A stretch of 37,898 bases of DNA. It comes from Peptostreptococcaceae bacterium. Lineage in GTDB: Bacteria; Bacillota; Clostridia; Peptostreptococcales; Acidaminobacteraceae. The stretch covers positions 1 through 37,898 of the forward strand of contig JAMOQG010000128.1 of the NCBI GenBank assembly GCA_027064135.1. Direction: 5' to 3'. The number at the start of each line of letters is the position of its first letter. Position 1 is the stretch's first letter. Made by a program: the position numbers and the translations under genes. Positions 23,608-35,789 of the stretch are shown piece by piece. The notes beneath the pieces were generated by a model. That model was not told the origin of the DNA and made no database searches. It saw nothing but the letters and a program-made list of their open reading frames with translations.

Positions 23608-26600
23608 TTAAACACTAATTATATTCATTTCATTTGCTTTAATTACAGCTTTAATTCTACTATCCACTTCCAATTTTGAATAAATATTACTTAAATGATT
23701 TTTTACAGTCCCTAATGCAATAAACAACTCTTTACTAATTGCTGAATTTGACATTCCTTCAGCGACTAAACTCAACACTTCTATTTCTCTTTCAGTAAGT
23801 AACGATTCAACTTCTTCACGTAGAAATATTTTCTTAACATTTACATTTTTAATTACCTCAATTTTTGAAAGCAATATAGGAGAAATACTTTTAATAAATT
23901 CTATTGCTTTTTCATCAAATCCATTATTATTTTCCTTTTCCATATAAACCAATCCAATAAATACTCCAAAATATTTTATAGGAATACACTTGATTGACAA
24001 TTCATCTTTCCCTAAAATATATAAGTCCTTTGAAAAAATTCCAATATTATTATTCCTAATTAAATTTATTTCTTCTCCTGTTCTTGCAACATAACGAATA
24101 ATTTTTCTTGATAAATAACTAACATGCTTCATAATAAAAGGCTCTTTATACATAATTGGTTGTTTATCTTTCTTTTTTTCATACTTTAAGTGCATTTCAT
24201 TTGACTTTTCAAATAAAACAGCACAATACTCAACATCATATTTCTCAGCTAAATAATTTAAGACATATTTAAAACTTTCTTCTTCATTCATCCCTTCAAT
24301 TCCATTTAAACTCGTAAAATTCTCTTCAATCGCAGTATTCTCAATTTTTTTTTCAACTTCGTGCTCAACTTTATTTTGACGTATTTCTTCTAAATTAAAT
24401 TCTTTTTCAATAACCTCTTCAATATAAGTTGCACCCAATTTATTAAATACTTGTTTTGCTTCTAACGCATAATATTTTTTTAGTTTCTGATTGTTTTTAT
24501 AATATTTTGCTGCAATTAAATTAGCAAATCCTTCAATATTCAAATAATTACGTTCTCTTGAGATTAAAATAGCCTCATTAATATTCTTTTCAAAATTAAT
24601 TCTATTTTCAAATTTATCAGAATATATAGCTTGTAAAATTAAATAATGCGAATAAAAGTTATATTTATAATTATTAATGTGTTTTTCAAATTTCTTCATT
24701 AATTTATCAATATTTTTCTTATTTTTATTCTCATTTGAAACATCAGTTTTCATTAAAATCTTTGCAACAATCAAATAAAACAGAACTTCATAATATATAA
24801 CAAATCCAATCAAATAATTTAAATTATTTTCAATTATTTTAATAAGCTCATACTTAATTTCAAAATCACCTTCTAAACATTGTCTTTGTAATCTAAAAAA
24901 ACTAATAATCACTTTTTCAACTATTTCAGATTCCGTAACTTCAGTTGCTATCTGATACTTATATGAAATTATACCAGTCTTTAAATAATAAATATGTTTA
25001 TTAATAACGTAGTTTATTAATTCATACTCTTTATCGCCAATCTTATTTAATAAACTTTTTTGAAAACTAATTGAATTCTCAATTTCTTCAAATGGTTTTC
25101 CAACAATTATATATGTCAAAATTAAAATAGACAATGAATAACTACTTAACATTATATTGTTTCTTTTTGCTCCTTCAGTAATAGCTTCCTCTAAATAATA
25201 AATTGAATCAGATAAGGGATTCGCCATATGATTTATAAATCCACCTAAAAACATATATGATATTGCTTTAACTGGTATCTCATCCATTTCATCCATCACT
25301 TCACGCGAAAGACTATCGAGCCATAAACCTTTTTCATAATCTTGCCAAAAATTATAGTTTATAAAACTTGTTACTAAATAACCTACTAATGAATATCGCG
25401 AAGTACCATATTTTGCTGTTAAATTTGCAATTTTAACAAATATTTGTCTATAATACTTCTCATTAATACTCATTGCCGCAGGCAAAATTAATGCTAGAGT
25501 GTCTAAAATATTTATAATTCTTTTATCCATAATTTTTTCAGAATTTTTTAATTTTAAAATTCTTTTTTTTGAATATCTTATTTTCATTTCAATAAGATCT
25601 AATAATATTAATTTATAATTCAAAGAAAATTTCATTTTTTTTAAACATTCTATGCCAATACTAAATGCATTTCTAAATTCACCTTTATAATTATAAAATT
25701 CAATATATACTTTTTTTATTCTAATTTGTTCGTTTGTTTCTTTAAATTGATTTAACATTAATTTGAATCTTTCATCAGAATTACTATAATTTTTACATAA
25801 AAACTCACACTCAGTAATTTCCAAATTGATTTCAAATTTATAATTATTTATAGTACTTTCATCTGCATACGGCAAAAGATAATCGCATAAATTCAATATT
25901 TCTAAAGCGCTTTCAACATTAGAAATATTCTTTGTTTCAATCGCGCATATATAAAGTTTATCGATCCAATCCGACGTATTCACTTTAGTTAACATTTCAT
26001 AATCTGCTCTAATAAGTTGCGATATCAAAAAGAACTTATTACATTTTGAATCATATTTTAAACATTTAACAGCAATTTCATTATGAATTTTTCTTTTTTC
26101 TGCTTCTTCTATCTCTTCATAAATAAGCTCATAAATTATGTCATGAGCGAATGAATAATTTATAATTTCATTTTCTTGAAATTCCTCTACTTTTTTTACA
26201 AGAAAAGTCAAATCGCATAAATTATCAAGATGTTTCTTTAAATCAATATTACTAATATCAACTATTTTATCTAAAGTTTCAGCTTCAACTGATCCATCAA
26301 AACATGAAATATATTTTAAAAGTTTATTATCAATGTCATTTAATTTATCCAATTTATTTAATATAATTTTTTCTATATCATCAGGTATCGTAATGTCGTT
26401 AATATTATTTATAAATACTATCCATTTTCGGGTTTTAACATCATATCTAACAATATTTTCTTGTAGAAAAATTCCAATTATCTCTTTAATATAAAAAGGA
26501 TTCCCTAAAGTTACTCCAAAAATAAATCTAACTAGATAATCAATGTTTTCAATATTTTTTCCGAAAATTCCCTCAATATATTCTTTTATATCATCTTTTA

Positions 26601-27309
26601 AAAATTCATTTAAACTTAAGACATTATTTTTATCACATCCTAAATTTTTAACCATTTTTTTTATTTTTAAAACATCAGTTTCACGAATAGACGCTATTAC
26701 CATAACATTTGTAAATTCACTATTGTTGTTAATACTTTTTACAATATCAAGTGAAGCATTGTCACTCCACTGAATATCATCAATAAAAATTATTAATGGG
26801 AAAAGATATTCTGAAACAATAGCCATAAATTCATTTACAGATTTTCTAATTACATACTTTGAGTCATCATATTTAATATTTTTAATGATATCATGACTCC
26901 CTAAAAATTTTTCTGCATATGGACATATTGAAACAACTAAGTTTGAATTAAAACTTACATCATTTGCCAATGCCTTTTTAATAGGCTCTAATTGCTCAAG
27001 TGGCAAAGTCAACAAATTCATAATAAGCTGTTTCATTATTCCAGATATGACATAAAAAGGGTTACCTGCATATTCTCTTGCTTTCTCATAGACATACGTC
27101 AAGTTTGTCCCTTCAAGTTCTGTAATAATATTTTCAACTAAAAATGTTTTTCCAATTCCTCTTTCACCTGTTATTAAAACACTAGTACCCTTACCTTCAA
27201 AAACGCAATCAAATTTACTTTTAATAAATTCTACTTCCTTATTTCTGCCAATAAAAATGCTCTCTATATCTCCATCTTCAATATTCTTTACTATTTTGTA
27301 AGCATCCAT
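23608..27309 (-). CDS. Giant ATPase-GAF-LuxR transcriptional regulator (LAL/MalT-like)
   Basis: 1233 residues. An N-terminal AAA/STAND ATPase has Walker A GERGIGKT (48-55) and Walker B LIIFIDDIQWSD (about 170), followed by a winged-helix part (about 310-400). A long all-helical region, probably TPR-like (about 410-960), and a GAF-like domain (about 1010-1145) follow. The C-terminus is a LuxR/NarL helix-turn-helix: LTEREIEVLSLVAEGMSNSA then LGTVKNHLSNIYSKLEVDSR (about 1165-1233). This layout is that of large ATP-dependent LuxR regulators, where ligand and ATP promote oligomerisation and DNA binding. ATG 27309 has GGAGGAG upstream. Its target is unknown; the tail-collar gene downstream is a candidate. 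Its promoter region faces the glutaredoxin gene. Confidence 0.9.
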   Translation of the reverse strand: MDAYKIVKNIEDGDIESIFIGRNKEVEFIKSKFDCVFEGKGTSVLITGERGIGKTFLVENIITELEGTNLTYVYEKAREYAGNPFYVISGIMKQLIMNLLTLPLEQLEPIKKALANDVSFNSNLVVSICPYAEKFLGSHDIIKNIKYDDSKYVIRKSVNEFMAIVSEYLFPLIIFIDDIQWSDNASLDIVKSINNNSEFTNVMVIASIRETDVLKIKKMVKNLGCDKNNVLSLNEFLKDDIKEYIEGIFGKNIENIDYLVRFIFGVTLGNPFYIKEIIGIFLQENIVRYDVKTRKWIVFINNINDITIPDDIEKIILNKLDKLNDIDNKLLKYISCFDGSVEAETLDKIVDISNIDLKKHLDNLCDLTFLVKKVEEFQENEIINYSFAHDIIYELIYEEIEEAEKRKIHNEIAVKCLKYDSKCNKFFLISQLIRADYEMLTKVNTSDWIDKLYICAIETKNISNVESALEILNLCDYLLPYADESTINNYKFEINLEITECEFLCKNYSNSDERFKLMLNQFKETNEQIRIKKVYIEFYNYKGEFRNAFSIGIECLKKMKFSLNYKLILLDLIEMKIRYSKKRILKLKNSEKIMDKRIINILDTLALILPAAMSINEKYYRQIFVKIANLTAKYGTSRYSLVGYLVTSFINYNFWQDYEKGLWLDSLSREVMDEMDEIPVKAISYMFLGGFINHMANPLSDSIYYLEEAITEGAKRNNIMLSSYSLSILILTYIIVGKPFEEIENSISFQKSLLNKIGDKEYELINYVINKHIYYLKTGIISYKYQIATEVTESEIVEKVIISFFRLQRQCLEGDFEIKYELIKIIENNLNYLIGFVIYYEVLFYLIVAKILMKTDVSNENKNKKNIDKLMKKFEKHINNYKYNFYSHYLILQAIYSDKFENRINFEKNINEAILISRERNYLNIEGFANLIAAKYYKNNQKLKKYYALEAKQVFNKLGATYIEEVIEKEFNLEEIRQNKVEHEVEKKIENTAIEENFTSLNGIEGMNEEESFKYVLNYLAEKYDVEYCAVLFEKSNEMHLKYEKKKDKQPIMYKEPFIMKHVSYLSRKIIRYVARTGEEINLIRNNNIGIFSKDLYILGKDELSIKCIPIKYFGVFIGLVYMEKENNNGFDEKAIEFIKSISPILLSKIEVIKNVNVKKIFLREEVESLLTEREIEVLSLVAEGMSNSAISKELFIALGTVKNHLSNIYSKLEVDSRIKAVIKANEMNIISV

Positions 27310-27335
27310 AAACTCCTCCAAAATCTAATCATTAT

Positions 27336-27365
27336 ATAATACCCAAATATTTAGATAATAATCAA
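27336..27365 (-). promoter_or_regulatory. Candidate promoter of the LuxR regulator gene
   Basis: Minus strand TTGATT, 18 bp, TATTAT, starting transcription about 20 nt before the start codon. A TATAAT lies a few bases downstream but has no -35. Confidence 0.4.
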
Positions 27366-27373
27366 AAATAGAC

Positions 27374-27402
27374 TTGAAAATCCAGTTCACATCACTTATA
27401 AT
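27374..27402 (+). promoter_or_regulatory. Sigma-A promoter of the glutaredoxin gene
   Basis: TTGAAA, 17 bp, perfect TATAAT, about 24 bp before the ATG at 27426. Confidence 0.8.
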
Positions 27403-27425
27403 CAACTTACTAGAGAGGAGAATTT

Positions 27426-27764
27426 ATGAAAAACATTATAATTTATACATCTTCAACTTGACCACATTGTCATACAGCAAAAATTTTTTTGAAGACTGAA
27501 GGATATAAGTTTACAGAAAAAAATGTAAGCAGTAATAAAGTTTATCAAAAAGAACTTGTTGATTTAGGTGCTCGTGGAGTACCAACATTTTTAATAGGTA
27601 ATGAAGTAATAGTTGGATTCGATAAAAATAGAATAGTAAATTTAATAGATTATAAAATCATTAAATGCCCTACATGTTTAAAAAGAATGAGAATTCCAAA
27701 AAATAAAGGAAAAATTAAAGTAACCTGTAAAGAGTGTAATACTAAATTTATAGTTAAATCATAG
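27426..27764 (+). CDS. Glutaredoxin-like selenoprotein (in-frame TGA) fused to a zinc ribbon
   Basis: A 112-residue reading frame interrupted only by TGA at 27459-27461. Reading TGA as selenocysteine (U) gives MKNIIIYTSSTUPHC, so U stands exactly where glutaredoxin/NrdH proteins have the first Cys of CPxC. After it come the normal glutaredoxin elements ARGVPTFLIGNEVIVGFD (cis-Pro loop and GF-D). Residues about 80-112 add a zinc-ribbon with CPTC and CKEC pairs. It has a strong promoter, GAGAGGAG before the ATG and full-length conservation after TGA, all against decay. It would reduce disulfides or peroxides, which fits PerR next door. I see no textbook SECIS hairpin, so a sequencing error or nonsense mutation must be excluded. 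Confidence 0.75.
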
Positions 27765-27771
27765 TAATATA

Positions 27772-27800
27772 TTGACTGATTTACATTCTTGAATTATAAT
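27772..27800 (+). promoter_or_regulatory. Sigma-A promoter of perR
   Basis: TTGACT, 17 bp, TATAAT; predicted transcription start near 27807, inside the palindrome at 27806-27818. Confidence 0.75.
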
Positions 27801-27805
27801 TAATT

Positions 27806-27818
27806 TGTAATCATTACA
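27806..27818. promoter_or_regulatory. PerR-box-like operator
   Basis: TGTAATCATTACA is a perfect palindrome; the 15-mer around it matches 12 of 15 bases of the Per box TTATAATNATTATAA. It covers the predicted perR transcription start, suggesting autorepression. Confidence 0.6.
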
Positions 27819-27862
27819 TAAAAGAAATGATTAAATATGCTGAAATTGAAAGCGAGAATATT

Positions 27863-28282
27863 ATGAAAATCATGTCAATACCTGAAATTAAAAAATATCT
27901 AAGTACTAATGGTATCAAACCATCATTACCTAGAATTAAAATTTTTGAATACTTAAATAATTATAAATCACATCCTACTGCAGATGAAATTTACAACGCA
28001 CTAATTGATGATTTAATAACTCTATCTAAAACAACAGTATATAATACTATGGATTTATTTCTTAAGCACAATATTGTGATTCAGATATTAATTGAAGAAA
28101 ACGAAATACGTTATGACTCTTTAACGTCAAATCATGGTCATTTCAAATGCATAAAGTGCAATAAAGTTTATGACTTTAAATATGATTTAGCTGATATTTC
28201 AATCAAAGAACTCGAAGGATTTTCTTTAATTGAATATCACACTTACATTAAAGGAATTTGTAAAAGTTGTAATGAAAAATAA
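27863..28282 (+). CDS. perR: PerR-type peroxide-sensing Fur family repressor
   Basis: 139 residues from the chosen start, close to the 145 of B. subtilis PerR. The winged helix reads SHPTADEIYNAL...TTVYNTMDLF. Residues at all five PerR regulatory metal ligands are present by alignment from memory: His of HPTAD, Asp of RYDS, both His of SNHGH, and Asp of YDFKYD. The Asp choices favour PerR over Fur. The structural zinc site is intact (CIKC and CKSC). It represses oxidative-stress genes until peroxide oxidises it. The start is uncertain: ATG 27827 is possible but gives a 12-residue N-terminal extension; both have weak ribosome sites. An operator-like palindrome overlaps its own promoter start. 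Confidence 0.85.
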   Translation: MKIMSIPEIKKYLSTNGIKPSLPRIKIFEYLNNYKSHPTADEIYNALIDDLITLSKTTVYNTMDLFLKHNIVIQILIEENEIRYDSLTSNHGHFKCIKCNKVYDFKYDLADISIKELEGFSLIEYHTYIKGICKSCNEK

Positions 28283-32575: not shown

Positions 32576-32818
32576 CTAATAATCAATTCCTGCTGCTTTT
32601 ACATTAGATGGATCAAATGCATGACATGGTACAACAGCATAGACCATGTTGCAATGAGGACATTTATCTTCAAAAGTATTCATTTCAAATGCTTTCCCAC
32701 ACTCAACGCAATCAATTGTCATTGACATTGGCATAAATTGTGTTGAAAAACCCATAGATCTTACTTTATTTACTACTTCTTTACCACTTTCAAAACTTCC
32801 ACTACATCCATCATGCAT
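32576..32818 (-). CDS. Small cysteine-rich (zinc-ribbon-like) protein of the ABC/GTPase cluster
   Basis: 80 residues, not recognised as a named family. Six Cys: Cys5 in MHDGCSGS, a CVEC pair and a CPHC pair (about 37-56) forming a likely zinc or iron ribbon, and one more in AVVPCHAFDP. No signal peptide. Its ATG overlaps the ATPase stop by 8 bp (ATGCATGA), so translation is coupled and its amount tied to the ATPase. AAAGGAG precedes it. A metal or sulfur carrier for the cluster is a reasonable guess, not a demonstrated function. Confidence 0.8.
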   Translation of the reverse strand: MHDGCSGSFESGKEVVNKVRSMGFSTQFMPMSMTIDCVECGKAFEMNTFEDKCPHCNMVYAVVPCHAFDPSNVKAAGIDY

Positions 32819-33851
32819 AATAATTCTCCTTTAATAATTTATTATTCTCCAATGTTTCACCATTTCTTAGATTTAATCTTAAACCATTAATAACATCATC
32901 CATTTTTTGAAGCTCAATGAGCAGTTTCTTTTCATCCTCAATTGTTTCCAAAGTTCCTGCTATACCACCATTTTTAATAATAATTCTTTTATCAGCCATC
33001 AATGCTAAAATAGGATCATGAGTTGCCATTAAAACAATTTTATCCTCTTTAACAAGTAAATTTAAAGCTTTCTTTCTATCTATTCCAGCGTTTTCTATCT
33101 CATCTATTAAAACTATAGGTGATGTGCTTAAAATCGCTGTATCAGCAATCATAAGTGCTCTAGATTGACCTCCGCTTAGATTAGTAATAGATGTTTCTAA
33201 ATCAAACTTCTCTCCAGCTAGATGATTTGCTGCTTCAATAATTCTTCTAATTATTTCTTTTTCGTTCTCAACCATTCTACTCCTAGCATGAAGTTCTATA
33301 AATTCTTTAACATTCAAATCCATTACAAAATTCATATTTTGAGAAAGTTGCGCAACTAATTTGTTTGACGAAGAAAATCTCCATTTCATATCTGGTTTTT
33401 TATGATTAATTAATATACTTCTATTTGTTGGTGTATCCCTGTTAGCAGTCCATTCAATATCAGCTAAAAGTCTGCTTTTCCCTGAACCAGTTGGCCCAAC
33501 AATAGAGATAATTTCACCTTTATTTATTGTAAACTCATCGAAATTTTCTTTATTTCCACTTTTATCATTTCCTGCAACAATAGTAAGCGAATCAACACCT
33601 TCATCTTCTTTGATTCCAAGAAACATCATCATTTCATTTAAATAATGAATAAAATCATTTTTTATTTTTTCAATGTCTATTGCCCACTGTTCAATATCAT
33701 CTTCAGAAAAATGATCTAAATATTCTATGAATGTTAAGTCATTGAACCCTTCAATATTTAAATTATTATTTTCATAAAATGATAATGAAAACGGATATTT
33801 ATTTTCAAGTTCTTTAATTGTCATATTTTCAATATTTTTAAATTTAATCAT
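32811..33851 (-). CDS. Soluble ABC ATPase with N-terminal DUF1858/ScdA-like helical domain
   Basis: 346 residues without membrane segments. Residues about 8-75 (MTIKELENKYPFSLSFYENN and onward) look like a DUF1858 or ScdA-N helical domain. The ABC domain follows: Walker A GPTGSGKS (about 119-126), signature LSGGQSR (about 226), Walker B IVLIDEIENAG, and switch His in MATHDP. The Walker B segment reads DEIENAG, unlike importer ATPases (DEPT), closer to non-transport ABC proteins. No permease gene is nearby. Its ATG overlaps the GTPase stop by 8 bp. Its likely role is ATP-driven remodelling or loading within this cluster; substrate unknown. Confidence 0.85.
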   Translation of the reverse strand: MIKFKNIENMTIKELENKYPFSLSFYENNNLNIEGFNDLTFIEYLDHFSEDDIEQWAIDIEKIKNDFIHYLNEMMMFLGIKEDEGVDSLTIVAGNDKSGNKENFDEFTINKGEIISIVGPTGSGKSRLLADIEWTANRDTPTNRSILINHKKPDMKWRFSSSNKLVAQLSQNMNFVMDLNVKEFIELHARSRMVENEKEIIRRIIEAANHLAGEKFDLETSITNLSGGQSRALMIADTAILSTSPIVLIDEIENAGIDRKKALNLLVKEDKIVLMATHDPILALMADKRIIIKNGGIAGTLETIEDEKKLLIELQKMDDVINGLRLNLRNGETLENNKLLKENYYA

Positions 33852-34545
33852 TTAAATCACCAAGCTTTATTTTTCTAACATTTCCCATTTGATAATCTTC
33901 ACCAATTCTTTTTTCTCCTAAACAATAAGAGCAAAGAGCAGAAGGCATTGAAAATCTTAGTTCTTTACCTTTTACAGTTGTAATATTCTCATTTTCATCA
34001 TATAGAAGTGTACTTAATTCATATGCACCTTGACCTGTTAAACCATTAATATGCATTGTTATTGCTTTCGGATTTACTAAATGCACTTTTGATGCAAAAA
34101 CTTCTCTCTCAGCTTGTGATACAATATCACCTTTTGTAATTACTACAATATCCGCTGATTTTAACATTGGTCCTATTTTTTTAGGAGTATTAATTCCACT
34201 TAGATTATCAATTACACATATTGCTTTAATATCTTTTAAATAAGGTGAACAACGATTACAAAGCCCAGCACTTTCAGTAATCAATACATCAAGTTTCTGT
34301 TTTACTCCCCATTCAACTACTTCTTCAATATTGCTAACAAAATAATGATCTGGACAAAGCGAACCTGATAAGCCTTTTTTTACAGGAACTCCTGCTTTTT
34401 CATATAAAATATCATCATCAGTATAAAGACAGTCAAATTTTACAACTCCAACTTTAAAATTTCTTTGTTTTAAAGCTTCAATTGTTTTTATAATTATAGC
34501 TGTTTTACCAGATGAAGGAGGACCTGATACGGTAACTAAATTCAT
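33844..34545 (-). CDS. HypB/UreG-like SIMIBI GTPase
   Basis: 233 residues. P-loop SGPPSSGKTAII at the N-terminus; VGVVKFDCLYTDDD and LITESAGLCNRCSPYL follow as the switch regions; VITKGD replaces the NKxD guanine motif; then HLVNPKAITMHINGLTGQG, as in HypB. HypB and UreG are metallochaperone GTPases of the G3E/SIMIBI group. Cysteines in the C-x2-C of the ESAGLCNRC loop and in LCSYC near the C-terminus could bind metal. Its ATG is two bases after the stop of the binding-protein gene, using the GGAGG in that gene's last codons. Probably handles a metal or cofactor for the neighbouring proteins. Confidence 0.82.
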   Translation of the reverse strand: MNLVTVSGPPSSGKTAIIIKTIEALKQRNFKVGVVKFDCLYTDDDILYEKAGVPVKKGLSGSLCPDHYFVSNIEEVVEWGVKQKLDVLITESAGLCNRCSPYLKDIKAICVIDNLSGINTPKKIGPMLKSADIVVITKGDIVSQAEREVFASKVHLVNPKAITMHINGLTGQGAYELSTLLYDENENITTVKGKELRFSMPSALCSYCLGEKRIGEDYQMGNVRKIKLGDLND

Positions 34546-34547
34546 AT

Positions 34548-35789
34548 CTACATACCTCCAATTGAATCATTAAATATTTTTTCACATTTTTTTATTAAAT
34601 TTCCGATATCATTTCCTTTTATATAATCCCAACCAAGCCACATATATTTGTCTTCATTAGAAATCATATTATCAACATTTGGATTAACACTTGGAAATTT
34701 ACCATTATGAGAAAGTATTTCGCCTACATTTTTTGAAGCAAAAAAATCAACAATAGGTTTAAGTTTTTCACTTTTTTCTTTTTTACTTAACATAAATATT
34801 GGGCTTAATATTGCACCATCTTTAGGCCATACAGCTTCCATAGGACCGCCTCTTTTAGTCATTTTTGTAAAGAAATAAGGCATAATTGTAACAATCGGTT
34901 TTTGAATATCTTTAATATGAGATTTTACCATTTCAGAAGGATGCATACTAGAAAGCAAACTCCTACCTAATCTTTTAATTCCATCTTCCCCATATTTTTT
35001 ATATACATTTAATAAAATTGCATTAAATAAATCAAAATCTCCTATTGGTAAACTAACTTTATTTTCATATTCTTCAGTTAAAAGCTCTTCCCATGAAGTT
35101 GGCATTTCTCGTCCATCAAGCTCATCTGTATTTATTAAAAATACAGCAGGCACAACTCCTATCATTGAATATTGGTTATCTGGATCTTTAAGACTTATAT
35201 ATTCATTTTCAAAATCTGAATTATAATTTTCAAAGCCTGTTATATCTTCAAATATATTTTCTTCCTTATATTTCCCAATTAAATCTTTATCAAAGAATAA
35301 ATCAAATCCTGCTGAAATAAAAATATCTGATAATACTTCTGCATCATTTGATTTTTCAAGTGAATCTTTAATCCAATCAACACCAACAGATGCAGCTTTT
35401 AATTCATAATCAACTTTTATATCAAGATCTTTTTCATTTTCATCTAACCATTCCTTTAAAGATTCCATTAATGGAACTCTTACAGGACATGGTAAAACTC
35501 CAGTTATTTTTACATTAGCATCTTTTTTTTCAATTTTCTCATCAAGCAATTCAATAAAATGGTTTTTATTTTCTTCAATAATATCAATCAACTGTTTTTC
35601 AAAGGTTTCAACATTAACTTTCTTCATTTTTAATGCCATTTCCAAAGTAATTGATTTACCTATCGTATTTCTTTGACTTTCATCTTTCATATTTTCAAAG
35701 CCAACTGCCACTAACATATCAATTGCTTCTTCATATTTATTTGTAATATCATATAGACTTTCTTTAACACTAAAATATTTATTTTTCAT
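34548..35789 (-). CDS. Cytosolic DUF1858-like / ABC solute-binding protein fusion
   Basis: 413 residues. The first 60 residues (SLYDITNKYEEAIDMLVAVG and on to ITLEMALKMKKVN) match the DUF1858 pattern. From about 92 on it is an iron/spermidine-type solute-binding fold: VKITGVLPCPVRVPLMESLK, IFISAGFDLFFDKD, MIGVVPAVFLINTDEL, MPTSWEELLTEEYENKVSLP and GAILSPIFMLSKKEKSEKLK. There is no signal peptide or lipobox, so it should stay in the cytoplasm, unlike normal binding proteins. GAGAGGTGG supports the ATG. It leads the four-gene cluster. It may bind a cytosolic metal complex or cofactor precursor and hand it to the GTPase and ATPase. Confidence 0.83.
   Translation of the reverse strand: MKNKYFSVKESLYDITNKYEEAIDMLVAVGFENMKDESQRNTIGKSITLEMALKMKKVNVETFEKQLIDIIEENKNHFIELLDEKIEKKDANVKITGVLPCPVRVPLMESLKEWLDENEKDLDIKVDYELKAASVGVDWIKDSLEKSNDAEVLSDIFISAGFDLFFDKDLIGKYKEENIFEDITGFENYNSDFENEYISLKDPDNQYSMIGVVPAVFLINTDELDGREMPTSWEELLTEEYENKVSLPIGDFDLFNAILLNVYKKYGEDGIKRLGRSLLSSMHPSEMVKSHIKDIQKPIVTIMPYFFTKMTKRGGPMEAVWPKDGAILSPIFMLSKKEKSEKLKPIVDFFASKNVGEILSHNGKFPSVNPNVDNMISNEDKYMWLGWDYIKGNDIGNLIKKCEKIFNDSIGGM

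Follow-up and report, generated by a model that had tools for sequence, protein, structure and literature searches.

The locus raises the question of whether an in-frame TGA at the active-site cysteine of a glutaredoxin gene marks a broken gene or a selenocysteine (Sec) codon. It lies in the window, the whole stretch of 37,898 nucleotides that was analyzed here (contig JAMOQG010000128.1 of a Peptostreptococcaceae bacterium), and a preliminary description of this DNA had proposed a new selenoprotein with a zinc-ribbon tail. The reading favored here, at a probability of roughly 0.9, is that the gene encodes a selenoprotein in which SelB with Sec-tRNA(Sec) would decode the UGA at 27459-27461 as selenocysteine, giving a 112-residue UPHC glutaredoxin with a zinc-ribbon tail. 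The features of the locus are collected in Table 1.

Table 1. Coordinates of the features at the glutaredoxin locus, in window positions
Feature	Position	Strand	Remarks
Promoter-like site TTGAAA-17-TATAAT	27374..27402	+	11/12 consensus matches; weak on its own
Ribosome-binding site GAGAGGAG	27413..27420	+	5 nt 5' of the ATG, from sequence
Probable selenoprotein gene, glutaredoxin domain plus zinc-ribbon-like tail	27426..27764	+	112 codons, ATG at 27426
Glutaredoxin domain, residues 1-74	27426..27647	+	PF00462; model match to C. oremlandii Grx1
Proposed selenocysteine codon 12 (in-frame TGA, UPHC)	27459..27461	+	TGA in 42/61, TGT/TGC in 19/61 collected genes
Place of the family SECIS hairpin	27478..27494	+	absent from the window's gene
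Alternative candidate SECIS hairpin of the window's genus	27484..27521	+	apical loop 27498-27507; 36 nt from TGA to loop
Zinc-ribbon-like Cys4 C-terminal tail, residues 75-112	27648..27761	+	CxxC-16-CxxC in 61/61 genes; four-strand model; sub-cutoff Pfam zinc-ribbon matches
Tail Cys codons	starts 27666, 27675, 27726, 27735	+	
Terminal stop of the gene	27762-27764	+	

Codon 12 is the sole internal stop between 27426 and 27764 and falls in the motif T-U-P-H-C, which agrees with the original observation of a TGA as the only interruption, exactly at the first position of C-P-H-C. The frame stays open for 100 codons past the TGA, with a chance probability of ∼2e-5 at the stretch's own base composition. 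Promoter, ribosome site, and frame had all been described as intact; the frame, the ATG, and the ribosome site stand, with similar purine runs at this position in many relatives, while the promoter is weak on its own because 27300-27900 contains 5 promoter-like sites compared to 5.8 expected from shuffles. The plain ORF list shows exactly what had been foreseen for a standard gene caller, a frame of 91 amino acids at 27489-27764 that begins with TTG and loses the active site. The existence of this mechanical ORF would suit a lack of readthrough, with an 11-residue peptide and a separate protein from TTG 27489 as the products. That ORF excludes T11, P13, H14, and C15, which occur in 47, 49, 47, and 49 of the 49 genes of the set described below, and no ribosome site is visible in the sequence before 27489; this alternative is extremely improbable.

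A pattern scan of species genomes with the single protein retrieves 10 loci, one from a congener and nine distant ones that match the glutaredoxin part only. The congener, Clostridiaceae bacterium HSG29 (L002), shows 89% identity over all 112 residues, and its identical TGA makes a read error unlikely. A search of 118 related genomes gives matches in at least 97. The resulting set of 49 genes from 48 genomes holds every copy, among the matches listed, in which the frame extends through the tail with neither TAA nor TAG; L013 was excluded as a duplicate of L002, being at identical coordinates on a contig of identical length, and matches reaching the tail only across TAA or TAG (e.g., G034:C68) were set aside as paralogues that lack the tail. 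Codon 12 in these 49 genes, again among the matches listed, is TGA in 30, TGT in 12, and TGC in 7, and P13, C15, L22, G51, V52, P53, G64, and the tail cysteines 81, 84, 101, and 104 are invariant. A profile search of the phylum (398 genomes, E ≤ 1e-20) yields matches in 31 genomes, 13 of which carry the full two-part gene (the window's included), each with one TGA; all 12 genes that this search adds to the first 49 have TGA at codon 12. The combined set, window included, comprises 61 two-part genes with 42 TGA, 19 TGC or TGT, and no other codon at this position, and the Cys homologues that the preliminary description had asked for are present among them. The resolving Cys and the four tail Cys residues occur in all 61 genes and His at residue 14 occurs in 56. 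Many related bacteria have a gene for a probable Sec-glutaredoxin with a zinc-ribbon-like tail, the 42 TGA forms being spread across 14 family codes. In one genome (G037), the two-domain gene is present twice, both times as a Cys form, on contigs C15 and C61 (L026 and L071).

The source genome is a draft assembly (2.68 Mb, 158 contigs, 97.9% complete), in which a sequencing error could hide a codon that is really TGT or TGC, or frame damage could have left a pseudogene. The recurrence of TGA at the same codon in so many genes and family codes, the lack of any other internal stop, and a dN/dS well under 1 make both variants scarcely credible. Between the window and HSG29, codons 13 to 112 give a dN of 0.054 and a dS of 0.269 by NG86 and a dN of 0.051 and a dS of 0.366 by YN00; the 100 codons past the TGA are under purifying selection between the two species, with a dN/dS of about 0.14 to 0.2.

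A genome without selenocysteine machinery had been named in advance as the finding that would overturn the proposal, and the machinery is present. selA, selB, and selD all score above curated cutoffs and lie on contig C11, which also carries a tRNA-Sec with the anticodon tca. The selD gene has an in-frame TGA of its own. The same holds for the gene of GrdA, a textbook selenoprotein (L104, contig C127 of the source genome G000), and the GrdB match stops at a TGA at codon 346, beyond which the frame continues. The machinery together with the in-frame TGA codons in selD, GrdA, and GrdB indicates that Sec is in use in this organism. The same genome also encodes a second, tail-less glutaredoxin (contig C126, 15772-15996) as an open frame of 76 amino acids with no in-frame TGA.

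Across the phylum sample, selA exceeds its cutoff in 13 of the 13 gene-bearing genomes compared to 256 of 398 overall (hypergeometric P of 0.003); the values are 12 of 12 and P of 0.0045 without the window's genome and 7 of 7 and P of 0.04 with one genome per family code. Among the 118 relatives, selA occurs in 101, including 29 of 30 TGA-form and 17 of 18 Cys-form genomes, and is so common there that co-occurrence tests little. The sole TGA-form genome without a selA match, G084, is 79% complete. Reading of the UGA as an amino acid other than Sec, through near-cognate Cys or Trp or through a code change, would fit the lack of a canonical SECIS in the window's lineage. Against such a reading, TGA is the terminal stop of only 1 of the 28 window ORFs taken as genes, TGG occurs 49 times, the Sec machinery is present, and codon 12 is restricted to TGA or Cys codons; the reading is very unlikely.

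An unrooted tree of the 61 proteins requires a minimum of 5 Sec/Cys changes compared to 16.4 with shuffled labels; with few columns and many unresolved forks, its well-supported branches force only 2. The clade of the window (support of 98/92) has six members, the TGA forms L002, L012 (the window's gene), L014, and L016 and the Cys forms L028 and L037.

The Sec-glutaredoxin/zinc-ribbon family has a clear, covarying SECIS hairpin, from which the lineage of the window departs. Counted from the U of UGA, nucleotides 20 to 25 pair with nucleotides 31 to 36, i.e., 17 to 33 nt after the UGA, and the loop in the 42 TGA forms is AGUUU in 21 and AGUUC in 8. Folding of nucleotides 16 to 45 against 500 codon-shuffled versions of the same peptide gives a mean z of −2.03 in 30 TGA forms and of +0.22 in 19 Cys forms (Mann-Whitney P of 8e-8). 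Four or more of the 6 pairs are made by 34 of the 42 TGA forms compared to 1 of the 19 Cys forms; a stricter scan (ungapped hairpin, early loop G, E ≤ −3) finds 29/42 and 2/19, respectively. Covariation was tested on a structure read off the same sequences and is inflated by relatedness, with the Cys set and codon shuffles as controls: pairing holds in 80.5% of the cells of the TGA set compared to 67.9% after shuffling, double changes occur in 25 cells, a count that none of 500 shuffles attains (6.6 in shuffles), the covariation score reaches 0.373 compared to 0.184, and 5 of the 6 pairs are changed on both sides, a number reached by 41 of 500 shuffles. The Cys set pairs in 32.5% of cells, and every measure lies at or below the shuffles. 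RNAalifold returns no consensus structure on the 42 TGA or the 19 Cys sequences and weak pairings only on the window clade of four, and Rfam gives three subthreshold matches on 27300-27900, none of them a SECIS. Fewer than 4 hairpin pairs are found in 8 of the 42 TGA forms, including L002, L012, L014, and L016, which are also one another's nearest TGA relatives; L019 and L082 apparently carry the same hairpin shifted by one, as we interpret them. The earlier statement that there is no clear SECIS applies to the window's gene but not to the family.

What that statement had offered in its place, an A/T hairpin, weak and with CAG/CUG at its base, is present, yet its stability does not exceed that of codon-shuffled versions (−1.4 kcal/mol, z of +0.36). 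An alternative candidate at 27484-27521 shows 8 and 5 pairs on either side of a single A-A mismatch and a 10-nt loop starting with G, with an MFE of −7.9 in a 45-nt fold and of −7.4 in a 42-nt fold. Its codon-shuffle P of 0.002 is uncorrected and was picked from 31 overlapping windows; the same hairpin in HSG29 reaches a P of 0.015, and the two sequences are not independent. The window and HSG29 differ at a single site among the 45 of codons 21 to 35, compared to 25 of 255 elsewhere (P of 0.07), and this difference, by our interpretation, preserves a pair. The hairpin is absent from L014 and L016, two of the three nearest TGA relatives. A published bacterial SECIS model, as given in the legend of its Fig 2, allows a loop of 3 to 9 nt with G in the first two positions, a spacing of 16 to 37 nt, and an MFE of ≤−7.5, and the accessible text of that paper states that some putative SECIS elements fail the model (PMC13188914). 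The candidate lies inside or near these limits with its first-position G, its spacing of 36, and its MFE of −7.9 (−7.4 in the 42-nt fold), and its loop of 10 nt lies outside. Two further structures were rejected. A register-shifted hairpin, C20-G33, forms 5 of 5 pairs in the window and is not distinctive because the Cys forms L021 and L064 form it likewise. The strong terminator-like hairpin at 27567-27583 (GGTGCTC-GTG-GAGTACC) has its loop 112 nt beyond the UGA and follows from the coded peptide, as the Cys forms L028 and L037 show stronger hairpins at this position.

SelD and GrdB of the source genome have strong hairpins, with the loops GUU and GGU, and the hairpin after the GrdA TGA is weak (36-nt fold, −0.8 kcal/mol; longer fold, −3.5 kcal/mol). 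A weak SECIS is thus compatible with Sec in this genome. Loss of the family hairpin in the four TGA forms of a clade that also contains two Cys forms could likewise be taken as a selenoprotein in decay, with the SECIS lost, Sec insertion poor or nil, and the gene heading to a Cys form or to loss. The persistence of purifying selection past the TGA and the comparably weak hairpin of GrdA count against decay, which is unlikely. Within the preferred reading, that of a UGA decoded as Sec, a tentative further proposal is that a widespread, unnamed family of Sec-glutaredoxins with zinc ribbons, found in Clostridiaceae-like bacteria and across the phylum, may have had its SECIS rebuilt in one lineage: the hairpin at 17 to 33 nt would have been lost and one at 23 to 60 nt would have taken over, with the UGA kept. 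If this is true, one gene family shows SECIS turnover in progress.

Glutaredoxins are characterized by a thioredoxin fold, a CPxC-type site, and a conserved active-site proline. The window protein matches PF00462 with 49.3 bits (cutoff of 22.9), the AlphaFold2 model of the family predicts a glutaredoxin fold with a pLDDT of 95 and a pTM of 0.80 that superposes on 7c10 at 0.8 Å, and P13, C15, and P53 are present in 49 of 49 members. The closest solved relative is Grx1 of Clostridium oremlandii (cGrx1, PDB 7c10/7c12), with an E of 9e-19 in the sequence search and, as the best Foldseek match, 46% identity and 0.8 Å over 73 columns. According to the accessible part of its description, this enzyme is natively a selenoprotein, its site being U(or C)PXC, and is proposed to reduce the selenoprotein MsrA (PMC7642778). 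The solved protein is the Cys version, with TCPHC at the same site as the UPHC of the window protein; it is a single-domain chain of 84 residues without a tail, in contrast to the window protein with its 38-residue Cys4 tail. A Sec-Sec pairing with MsrA was considered and rejected: the one MsrA match of the source genome has no in-frame stop, and the C. oremlandii pairing is therefore not copied there. In the proposed reaction, the Sec12 selenolate would attack a substrate disulfide, the mixed selenosulfide would be resolved by Cys15, and a thiol reductant would restore the enzyme, in the manner reported for C. oremlandii Grx1.

The tail shows two CxxC knuckles on a small predicted β fold, as in zinc ribbons, and zinc binding is putative. 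Predicted alone, it forms four strands with a pLDDT of 83 and a pTM of 0.41. Its structural matches are nonsignificant, the best being the ZitP zinc finger (probability of 0.97, E of 0.37), and the list includes LysW and, lower down, thioredoxin 2 entries. Several zinc-ribbon models match below their cutoffs; Zn_ribbon_4 scores 17.9 bits with the window protein (cutoff of 30.3) and matches 41 of 49 members at an E of ≤0.01. The mean net charge over the 49 members is +6.6 in the tail compared to +0.9 in the glutaredoxin part. The basic Cys4 tail would bind zinc and most likely tune the redox domain or dock it to a partner; it could instead be iron binding and electron passing.

Thioredoxin 2 (TrxC), whose active site carries Cys and not Sec, combines a thioredoxin-fold redox domain with a CxxC/CxxC zinc domain, like the two parts of the window protein. 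The accessible text on thioredoxin 2 describes an N-terminal zinc domain and the active site WCGPC, assigns this zinc domain a proposed role in modulating activity, and reports that Cys-to-Ser changes in it impaired reduction (PMC8945050), whereas the window protein has a C-terminal tail and UPHC. By analogy, thioredoxin 2 appears to be the nearest working model for the tailed Sec-glutaredoxin; a search with the tail profile gives a weak match to a single thioredoxin chain, 7ysi (E of 0.041).

Among the NCBIfam models listed, none is matched by the window protein above its cutoff. The best match is the YruB glutaredoxin-like model TIGR02196 (66.1 bits, cutoff of 88.55), which has 74 positions and no tail, unlike the window protein. 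The UXX-star families NF041212, NF041114, NF041211, and NF047338 are glutaredoxin-like (seleno)proteins as well; NF041212 is matched by 49 of 49 members at an E of ≤0.001, the window protein scores 50.4 bits with it (cutoff of 66) and 27.7 to 29.7 bits with the other three (cutoffs of 72 to 100), and it differs from UXX-star proteins in its UPHC, its resolving Cys, and its tail. A 2006 listing, in its accessible part, credits Alkaliphilus metalliredigenes with two glutaredoxin selenoproteins (PMC1794560), one of which may belong to the tailed family. "Glutaredoxin UxxC" and UXX-star families appear in the accessible text of a 2026 catalogue, from which the words "zinc ribbon" are absent, and a glutaredoxin/zinc-ribbon selenoprotein fusion was not found in searches of open-license papers. 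The novelty claimed in the preliminary description is accordingly limited to the zinc-ribbon fusion, since Sec in a glutaredoxin is already known from C. oremlandii Grx1.

Under the favored reading, the prokaryotic selenoproteome would gain a two-domain protein that a simple start-to-stop ORF call cuts short, losing the active site. This short protein, with its 42 Sec and 19 Cys members, offers a natural series for the requirements of SECIS elements, their loss or replacement, and Sec-to-Cys swaps. The weak SECIS in the window's lineage, beside the strong elements of SelD and GrdB, makes a minimal SECIS testable by reporter.

The neighborhood was surveyed in the flanks of the 61 genes (shorter flank with a median of 1.5 kb and below 1 kb in 6), counting clusters present in at least 4 loci. 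Within these flanks no neighbor recurs across the family, and no partner operon was found. The commonest neighbor is an upstream gene that we take from its sequence to be MutY-like, at 14 loci of Cys and TGA forms alike. A presumably diacylglycerol-kinase-like neighbor occurs at 11 loci, 10 of them Cys forms, and a gene presumed to be bacteriohemerythrin-like lies downstream of six Cys forms (L017, L020, L026, L035, L038, and L071). In the window, a Fur-family regulator (PF01475; 27827-28282, plus strand) directly follows the selenoprotein gene and has its own promoter-like TTGACT-17-TATAAT at 27772-27800; the same Fur-family gene, judged by eye, follows in HSG29. A divergent 1,237-residue AAA ATPase with a LuxR-type C-terminal domain (23608-27321, minus strand) starts ∼105 bases upstream of the selenoprotein gene. 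Farther downstream, the minus strand at 32576-35789 encodes an 80-residue Cys-rich protein without a Pfam match at an E of 1e-4, together with a solute-binding protein with DUF1858, a CobW/HypB-type GTPase, and an ABC ATPase, a cluster that looks like a metal- or small-molecule-handling unit.
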